NCBI GenBank assembly: GCA_028139685.1
Contig: JAOINQ010000033.1
Span: 1-6,969 of the forward strand
DNA: 6,969 nucleotides
Direction of reading: 5' to 3'
Source of the DNA: Betaproteobacteria bacterium
GTDB lineage: Bacteria; Pseudomonadota; Gammaproteobacteria; Burkholderiales; Burkholderiaceae_A
Within the stretch, counting starts at the first letter, position 1; the number at the start of each line of letters is the position of its first letter. Under the pieces are notes generated by a model, which saw nothing but the letters and a program-made list of their open reading frames with translations, made no database searches and had not been told where the DNA came from. The position numbers were made by a program, and so were the translations under genes. Below, piece after piece: positions 5,915 through 6,333 of this stretch.

Positions 5915-6204
5915 TGGTGCCGGTTATCGGATTTGAACTGATGACCTACCGCTTCATAATTCTCAACCATTTTCACAGTCGACAACAATTGTCGTGAGAA
6001 TTTGGACTTTCTCTTCATCATATTGATTAGCATCAACTTAGATGCTCCCCGTCAAGTCTCTACACGTTCACCCACAAAGGTGCTTCGCTCGGGATTGCCA
6101 TTTTAAAGGTTTCCCCGAATTTGAGGAGTGGTCATCTCAATGTTTCCAAAGAGAGTTGCAATTTAACTTACAAGGCGGTTGCTCTACCACTGAGCTAAAC
6201 CGGC
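5915..6204 (-). tRNA. tRNA-Thr(UGU), split by a group I intron
   Basis: Read on the minus strand, exon 1 is 6170-6204 (35 nt) and exon 2 is 5915-5954 (40 nt including an encoded CCA). Joined, they give a 75-nt cloverleaf. The acceptor stem GCCGGTT pairs fully with AACCGGC, with discriminator A. The D-arm is GCTC/GAGC with a 7-nt loop. The anticodon stem ACCGC pairs with GCGGT around the loop CTTGTAA, giving anticodon UGU for ACA and related threonine codons. The variable loop is AGGTC and the T-loop TTCAAAT. The T-stem ATCAG/CCGAT contains one A.C mismatch (positions 52-62). The exons closely resemble threonine tRNAs of other proteobacteria. The 215-nt insertion lies between position 36, the last anticodon base, and A37, so no functional anticodon loop exists until it is removed. 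The gene lies downstream of sspB on the same strand and converges on grxD. Confidence 0.95.
5955..6169 (-). ncRNA. Self-splicing group I intron (probably IC3) in tRNA-Thr
   Basis: This 215-nt intron interrupts the anticodon loop after U36. Hand folding of the minus strand gives the conserved core. P1: exon UUGU pairs with guide GCAA, with the U.G wobble at the splice site. P2 carries a GAAA loop (plus positions 6143-6146). P3: CUCCUC/GGGGAG (6123-6128 with 6045-6050). P4: CGGGG/UCCCG (6113-6117 with 6090-6094), preceded by J3/4 AAAUU and followed by AAACC. P7: GACUU/AAGUC (6054-6058 with 6005-6009), the guanosine-binding helix. P8: CAUC/GAUG. P9: an 8-bp AAUUCUCA/UGAGAAUU helix (5995-6002 with 5958-5965) enclosing a 6-bp hairpin at 5980-5994. 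The last intron base is G. Segments such as GAGACUUGACGGGGAGC and GGCAAUCCCGAGC resemble the R and Q motifs of the cyanobacterial tRNA-Leu and Azoarcus tRNA-Ile introns, which are IC3. No homing endonuclease or maturase ORF is present. Splicing would use an external guanosine. Confidence 0.93.
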
Positions 6205-6333
6205 ACGGATTCAAATATAACATGCACTACCCATTATTTCCGTAATTTTTTTTATTATTTGCGAATTTAGTGTTGAAGTCCATCGTTTTGCGTTCTTCAA
6301 ATTACCTGAGTTTGTCTTTCGGGAGAATCATCC
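6205..6333. other. Spacer between sspB and tRNA-Thr
   Basis: This 129-nt A/T-rich stretch has no plausible ORF. It holds the probable tRNA promoter and an 8-base T run (plus strand, 6246-6253). A short inverted repeat GGGA/TCCC lies near 6320-6333, just past the sspB stop; it has no U-run on the minus strand, so I do not call it a terminator. Confidence 0.6.
6214..6222 (-). promoter_or_regulatory. Probable extended -10 promoter of tRNA-Thr
   Basis: On the minus strand, TGT followed by TATATT forms an extended -10 element (TGnTATATT). A start about seven bases downstream, near 6207, would leave a leader of only about 3 nt before the first base of the mature tRNA. A weak -35-like TTACGG lies 19-20 bases upstream, and an A/T-rich stretch (6241-6260) could act as an UP element. 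Read-through from sspB is the alternative. Confidence 0.55.

Follow-up and report, generated by a model that had tools for sequence, protein, structure and literature searches.

Does the window, the whole 6,969-nt stretch of DNA analysed here, contain a tRNA-Thr(UGU) gene split by a group I intron, would such a gene work, and from where could its intron have come? Run without introns on the whole window, ARAGORN detected zero tRNA genes. With introns allowed, it detected a split tRNA-Thr(tgt) on the minus strand from 6204 to 5915 (c[5915,6204]). The intron measures 215 nt and follows base 35 of the gene; owing to the short D loop, this base has tRNA position 36. The split threonine tRNA that a preliminary description had read in the letters of 5915..6204 was thus recovered to the base.

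Exons, splice junction and gene neighbourhood

Joining the two exons yields a 75-nt sequence with an encoded CCA, which ARAGORN calls tRNA-Thr(tgt) with anticodon UGU and which resembles the intact tRNA-Thr(UGU) of 18 relatives. Its single flaw, in keeping with the near-perfect tRNA first described, lies in the T stem, where all five aligned species (the window and four relatives) have an A-C mismatch. The same site is a T-A pair in the intron-less relatives L130-L133. The elements of the gene are the following (a slash denotes the interrupted bond here and below):

6170..6204, minus strand: 5' exon, tRNA-Thr(UGU) positions 1-36 (ARAGORN with introns; identical in four relatives)
5915..5954, minus strand: 3' exon, tRNA-Thr(UGU) positions 37-76, CCA encoded (ARAGORN; identical in four relatives)
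6214..6222, minus strand: candidate extended -10-like element TGTTATATT, upstream of the tRNA (by eye, 5/5 species)

The extended -10-like element at 6214..6222 was missed by a consensus scan.

From the window sequence alone, the splice junction could be placed at positions up to 3 nt apart, AAG being the start of both the intron and the 3' exon. In the five-species alignment, the first base of the G415 intron is G and the first base of its 3' exon is A, and therefore 36/37 is the sole fitting junction. Together with the ARAGORN call, this confirms the size of 215 nt and the insertion 3' of base 36 given in the preliminary description. At this junction the 5' exon ends with U, which forms a U.G pair in P1, and the intron ends with G. 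Group I introns follow the rule that a U ends the 5' exon, that this U forms a U.G pair in P1 and that the intron terminates with G. The uninterrupted gene reads CCTTGT/AAGCGG at the junction in 11 of the 18 relatives and CCTTGT/AAGCGA in the other 7.

The genes of the window are, on the plus strand, part of phoR, ilvA, hemA, prfA, prmC and a Grx4 glutaredoxin gene and, on the minus strand, a gene for an SspB-like ClpXP specificity factor; the interrupted tRNA gene lies between grx4 and sspB. The best relative of PrfA among the matches listed is that of locus L001, a Betaproteobacteria MAG (60% identity, search of genome contigs). From L001 we inferred the wider order and class searched, taken as Burkholderiales and Gammaproteobacteria in the GTDB sense; the family is represented by 26 searched genomes including G001, the genome of L001.

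Identity and structure of the intron

A group I intron had been proposed, and the covariance search agrees: cmscan matched RF00028 (Intron_gpI) on the minus strand from 6179 to 5983 with a score of 58.2 bits (gathering score 50) and an E-value of 3.8e-13, much better than chance would give; it is the sole match in the whole window at E<=1. The match stops at 5983, 28 nt short of the splice site, and pairing in that part is poor. The G415 intron scores 46 bits, below the gathering score of 50. The ORF list contains no ORF of at least 60 amino acids on the intron's own strand, so that the intron is now unlikely to home actively by means of an enzyme that it encodes. The intron and its helices are located as follows:

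5955..6169, minus strand: group I intron, 215 nt (RF00028 match, five-species alignment; ORF list)
6156..6173, minus strand: P1, exon UUGU plus intron AA with UUGCAA (6161-6156), U36.G at the 5' splice site (five species)
6135..6154, minus strand: P2 hairpin with GAAA loop at 6146-6143 (five-species structure)
6045..6128, minus strand: P3 (6128-6123 with 6050-6045), enclosing P4 (6119-6114/6093-6088), a very short P5, P6 and P6a (RF00028 and five-species structure)
6004..6060, minus strand: P7 guanosine-binding helix with a bulged A (6060-6055 with 6008-6004), forming a pseudoknot with P3 (invariant in five species)
6016..6044, minus strand: P8 (five-species alignment; A-U to G-C double change in G415)
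5958..6002, minus strand: P9 (6002-5995/5965-5958) with hairpins P9a (5994-5980) and P9b (5979-5966, GAAA loop 5974-5971) (five-species structure)

Helices P1 to P9b were traced manually on the Rfam alignment, partly from the window sequence itself, with P7 as a pseudoknot. Over the five species, 99.1% of the 320 cells of this structure are standard pairs. Sliding the partners by 1-3 columns left 34-48% of the cells paired, a control which a structure drawn from its own sequence is expected to beat. P1 is paired in 30/30 cells, the U36.G wobble being present in 5/5 species, and P3, P4, P7 and P8 are likewise paired in all five; the unpaired cells are two in P9a and one in P9b. The intron ends with ..AUG or ..GUG ahead of AAGCGG in 5/5 species. 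The internal loop of P8 (UCUAAG...UAUGA) presumably resembles a GAAA receptor. As for P10, the only candidate seen by eye is an AA/UU pairing in competition with the intron's own first bases.

Double-sided changes occur in two pairs, one in P8 (A-U to G-C) and one in P9b (C-G to U-A). Shuffled alignments reached the observed number of double changes in 46/500 cases and the observed covariation score in 32/500, a weak result because the five sequences are close; covariation was therefore dropped as a claim of significance, five close sequences giving too little. Folded alone, the intron has a free-energy z-score of -1.9, and thermodynamic folding alone did not recover P7/P3 and P9 as drawn.

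The intron is 215 nt long, interrupts the anticodon loop, has a P5 hairpin of 12 nt and has no P5abc. In the tree described below, it is found on the same side of a 100/99 branch as the introns of tRNA-Leu(UAA) and the Azoarcus-like introns of tRNA-Ile, which we take to be textbook IC3. It belongs to the tRNA-intron (IC3-like) kind of group I introns.

Conservation of the intron and its empty site in the family

RF00028 matches were found in 5 of the 26 family genomes (above the gathering score in 4). The Thr introns among these matches are those of G308, G249, G414 and G415 alone, located between grx4 and sspB as in the window and 215 or 216 nt long; the same insertion is thus seen in related genomes, where the preliminary description had suggested looking for it. 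In the fifth genome, G070, the host is a tRNA-Asn(GUU). HemA is 91-93% identical to that of the window in G308 and G249, and prmC 81% in G414 and 59% in G415.

An uninterrupted tRNA-Thr(UGU) was detected in 18 of the 26 genomes (at most 3 mismatches to an arm pattern). Within the roughly 1.5 kb fetched on each side, its neighbours include sspB in 18/18 and also grx4 in 15/18. From this shared gene order, the uninterrupted tRNA-Thr(UGU) beside sspB is read as the empty site. The gene of G403 is an intact variant of tRNA-Thr(UGU), and in G001, G406 and G188 the patterns used detected neither the intact nor the interrupted form.

An intact tRNA-Thr(UGU) elsewhere, which the preliminary description had regarded as counter-evidence, was not found in the draft assemblies of the four intron-bearing relatives with a looser pattern allowing 1 mismatch. 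UGU-like matches in G308 and G249 were discarded as intact tRNAs, their anticodon stem being unpaired by eye. The looser pattern recovered Thr(CGU) in 4/4 of these genomes and Thr(GGU) in 1/4; Thr(GGU) was likewise not found in the other three drafts.

Compared with the window, the exons of the four relatives are 100% identical and their introns 87-94% identical. The flanks are 54-71% identical over 110 nt upstream and 42-59% over 43 nt downstream, and in G308 and G249 the DNA of four nearby genes is 83-91% identical. This gradient (exons above intron above flanks) is the strongest sign of function that sequence comparison provides. It bears on the alternative of a dead interrupted gene, with another gene reading ACA. 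The T-stem mismatch could be taken as a symptom of decay, and function is here judged from sequence. We nevertheless regard such a loss as highly improbable, given that the exons are invariant in five species, that the intron is more conserved than the flanks and that no intact UGU gene was found in the four relatives.

Predicted function of the interrupted gene

With high confidence, we thus propose that an uncultured betaproteobacterium has here a working tRNA-Thr(UGU) gene, split by a small IC3-like group I intron. The intron is real and conserved, and very probably active. The interrupted precursor would be transcribed, and the last four exon bases, UUGU, would pair with the guide GCAA to form P1. 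Group I splicing proceeds by two transesterifications with guanosine: here, a guanosine bound in P7 would cut 3' of U36, which would then attack 3' of the terminal G of the intron, and the exons would be ligated as CUUGUAA. Since no other UGU tRNA was found in the intron-bearing relatives, the reading of ACA codons would require this splicing reaction. That absence and the conservation of exons and intron suggest that splicing is probably essential. The intron has no endonuclease ORF; it probably entered an ancestor of the five species and was passed on vertically from then on.

Host tRNAs of bacterial group I introns

RF00028 was matched at E<=0.001 in 39 of 399 genomes of the order and in 56 of 369 genomes of the class. 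We read 114 match loci from the family, order and class searches, among which the place in G308 recurs. Because the anticodons given by ARAGORN for intron-containing genes are often wrong (for instance 'Gln(ctg)' for CAU), the hosts were re-read with a script. The script demands a U before and a G after the splice sites, so that the U rule is assumed and cannot be tested by it. The hosts read were CAU tRNAs (36/37 and 33/34), Leu(UAA) at 34/35, Arg(CCU), Lys(CUU), Asn(GUU) at 35/36 and Thr(UGU) at 36/37. Match places devoid of a tRNA call were given no host, and some appear rRNA-like by eye.

Besides the window, 8 bacterial genomes exhibit a Thr(UGU) intron at 36/37: G308, G249, G414 and G415 within the family and G593, G743, G532 and G650 outside it. 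The Thr(UGU) loci split at 36/37 in the four genomes outside the family, which are of the same class, are L142, L144, L147 and L150. L324 was excluded from the Thr count, the script having read it once as Leu and once as Thr, and L241, read as Thr at 33/34, was not counted, Asn(GUU) fitting equally well. Arg(CCU) introns at 36/37 were identified at L314, L322 and L349.

Several other sites were encountered. According to the script, CAU tRNAs are interrupted between U33 and C34 at L107, L312, L340, L350 and L354-L358; 8 of these 9 introns fall in one 98/97 clade, with L340 apart. We know of no earlier description of an insertion between U33 and C34. tRNA-Asn(GUU) introns between U35 and U36, at L084, L094 and L105, belong to two distant intron classes. 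Finally, positions 1454-1767 of L153 hold a tRNA-Lys(CUU) with a 237-nt group I intron at 36/37.

The preliminary description had supposed that tRNA-Thr(UGU) might be a new host. Among the open papers listed, titles, abstract beginnings and passages name no bacterial tRNA-Thr as a host of a group I intron; the passages of PMC11835236, PMC11878797, PMC7886860, PMC6125680, PMC4177764, PMC2813288 and PMC13096335 mention no Thr host. To this extent the supposition stands, but the host is shared with the 8 other genomes and with two phage-like contigs. In its accessible part, PMC8450103 reports group I introns in fMet and Ile2. The part of PMC5733544 available to us describes cyanobacterial introns in Arg, Gly and Lys, one of nucleotides 38 to 74 and one of 49 nt, in our judgement too short for a group I core.

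Introns of phages, viral contigs and plasmids

A P3-P6 core pattern derived from the window and its relatives matched four viral contigs, and a looser core pattern matched at least 120. A pattern of the split Thr gene matched four viral contigs. Core matches devoid of a tRNA call amount to 75 of 127 viral loci. From 131 viral loci, 57 introns could be resolved by the script: 33 in Leu(UAA), 7 in Arg(UCU) at 34/35, Thr(UGU) introns at 36/37 in 3 cases (L171, L295 and L296) and at 34/35 in one (L294), and further ones, in part doubtful. The viral contig of L294 holds a tRNA array in which tRNA-Thr(UGU) is split at the Leu-type site 34/35 (L294:2344-2629).

L171 and L296 come from one metagenome and carry a near-identical Thr intron, amid 9 and 10 tRNA genes, respectively. 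Both contigs have ORFs with matches to homing-endonuclease families; in L171, one such ORF shares ten bases with the end of the Thr gene. Most of the scanned ORFs of the two contigs have no family match or match only families devoid of a known function; we nevertheless take these phage-like contigs as phage. They differ in tRNA-Leu(UAA), which is split in L171 and continuous in L296. L295 was not counted as phage because its contig, alongside a RIIA-like match, has a GGDEF-EAL gene and may be bacterial.

Longer tRNA-Leu-type introns of about 700 nt were observed in L172 (3907-4665 of a 297-kb viral contig), with an ORF matching HNH endonuclease families, and in L306 (the 595-kb uncultured phage LR756511). 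A distant blastn search of 50,697 phage records recovered 7 records with a similar stretch. Of the five read, two (uncultured phages of 735 kb and 595 kb) place the stretch in tRNA-Leu(UAA), two place it between capsid genes and one has no tRNA call. Plasmid matches were found in 6 records, the one read being a tRNA-Leu intron (L305). These phage tRNA introns contrast with a 2014 review (PMC3984707), which states, in the part accessible to us, that the phage introns observed until then were all in protein-coding genes.

Origin of the Thr introns

A tree was built from 99 introns and 191 columns. The misread or odd rows L344, L155, L351, L346, L256, L193 and L324 were left out, and the tree was thinned by omitting every other gamma CAU intron at 36/37 and every other Burkholderiales Leu intron; a first tree already omitted every other phage Leu intron, introns above 330 nt, duplicates and rows lacking the P7 motif. 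A 100/99 branch of length about 0.7 parts class A (25 rows) from class B (74 rows); for class A with L094/L105, the tree tool issued a warning about meeting long branches. Inside class B, the Thr intron of the window and those of its four relatives form a 99/96 clade; the other seven Thr introns at 36/37 are all in class A.

We had expected beforehand a single origin for all Thr(UGU) introns. Holding the 12 together costs 88 log units and is rejected (p-AU 0.003, an unadjusted value for a group picked after the first FastTree tree). The site was therefore probably colonised at least twice. The seven class A Thr introns held together are not rejected (p-AU 0.309), and therefore two origins are claimed and not three. 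In the light of these trees, the 36/37 bond of tRNA-Thr(UGU) has probably been invaded at least twice.

No sister of the five Thr introns is supported within class B, and none of four candidate donor groups is rejected. Held with the Azoarcus-like Ile introns, the five Thr introns give a p-AU of 0.187 at a cost of 25.7 log units. Held with the Arg(CCU) introns, they give a p-AU of 0.547 and a likelihood 3.2 above the free tree, and with the Asn(GUU) introns at 35/36 a p-AU of 0.607 and a likelihood 8.8 above it; since these two held trees beat the free tree, the latter is not the best one. The union with the phage Leu/Arg introns at 34/35 has a p-AU of 0.40.

Accordance of site had led the preliminary description to suggest spread from the Arg and Ile introns. 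More broadly, another bacterial anticodon-loop intron (in Ile(CAU), Arg(CCU) or Asn(GUU)) may have reached tRNA-Thr by reverse splicing or homologous capture, a plausible course to which we give somewhat less than even weight. Ile(CAU)-type and Arg(CCU) introns share the 36/37 site, and a tree in which the five Thr introns join those of Arg(CCU) or those of Asn(GUU) is slightly likelier than the free tree. However, none of the Ile, Arg and Asn groups is supported as sister, the Azoarcus-like Ile introns carry the cost given above, and the Asn(GUU) intron of the family member G070 is of the other class. Of the initial suggestion, it holds that unions with Ile and Arg are not rejected; neither is singled out as the source.

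Alternatively, the intron could derive from a phage intron of the tRNA-Leu/Arg type, its site having changed from 34/35 to 36/37. If the close relatives are set aside, the introns compared that come nearest are those of a phage-contig tRNA-Leu (L171; 0.815 in the core, 0.70 over the 191 columns) and of a phage-contig tRNA-Arg(UCU) (L173; 0.79 in the core). Many tRNA introns were found on viral contigs, at least one with an HNH ORF, and P9, with its outer stem, variable hairpin and GAAA hairpin, is by eye arranged similarly to that of the Leu type. But L170-L173 were retrieved with the core pattern of the window and its relatives, so that their closeness is biased and a lead alone. Moreover, three other genomes of the phylum have the core with at most 3 mismatches in tRNA-Leu(UAA), and the tree, while not rejecting the phage union, supports no sister. 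We thus consider a phage source unlikely.

A wider scenario can be advanced tentatively, as a conjecture we would not call probable: tRNA-Thr(UGU) would be a recurrent, unreported target, invaded at 36/37 by two distant classes, and phage tRNA clusters with homing endonucleases would shuttle introns between tRNAs and hosts. If so, any U of the anticodon loop could serve as a 5' splice site, and every tRNA with U36, those reading ANN codons, would be open to invasion.

Significance and comparison with known systems

The intron is of an ordinary kind, its host tRNA is unusual and, as far as could be checked, new, and the locus belongs to a broader pattern of recurrent tRNA invasion. With it, tRNA-Thr(UGU) joins the hosts of group I introns, and the examined relatives provide a case in which the sole tRNA seen for a codon would depend on a predicted ribozyme. 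The apparent repeat invasion of one bond makes host switching by tRNA introns testable by sampling. Because plain ARAGORN misses the gene, such genomes could be scored as lacking tRNA-Thr(UGU), and intron-aware tRNA annotation matters for genomes like that of the window.

The intron of Azoarcus sp. BH72 pre-tRNA-Ile(CAU), which L095 resembles, is an IC3 intron of about 205-215 nt, inserted after U36, with a GAAA L2 and no ORF. It shares with the window intron its size, its site after U36, the P1-P9 order, the GAAA L2, a short P5 devoid of P5abc and the lack of an ORF. The two differ by the host, tRNA-Thr(UGU) in the window, by P5, almost absent here, and by P9, which bears two hairpins on an outer stem in the window and is one simple hairpin in Azoarcus; a sister relation between the window intron and the Azoarcus-like Ile introns has no support, yet is not rejected. 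With tRNA-Leu introns, the window intron has in common its class B position, a P4-P6 core with at most 3 mismatches in three genomes and, by eye, a similar P9 layout, but Leu introns are inserted between U34 and A35 and the window intron between U36 and A37. The Thr introns of L142, L144, L147, L150, L171 and L296 occupy the same host tRNA and the same 36/37 site; they belong to class A and the window intron to class B, in line with the rejected common origin. Bacterial tRNA-Arg(CCU) introns share with the window intron both the 36/37 site and the class, and differ from it by their host.
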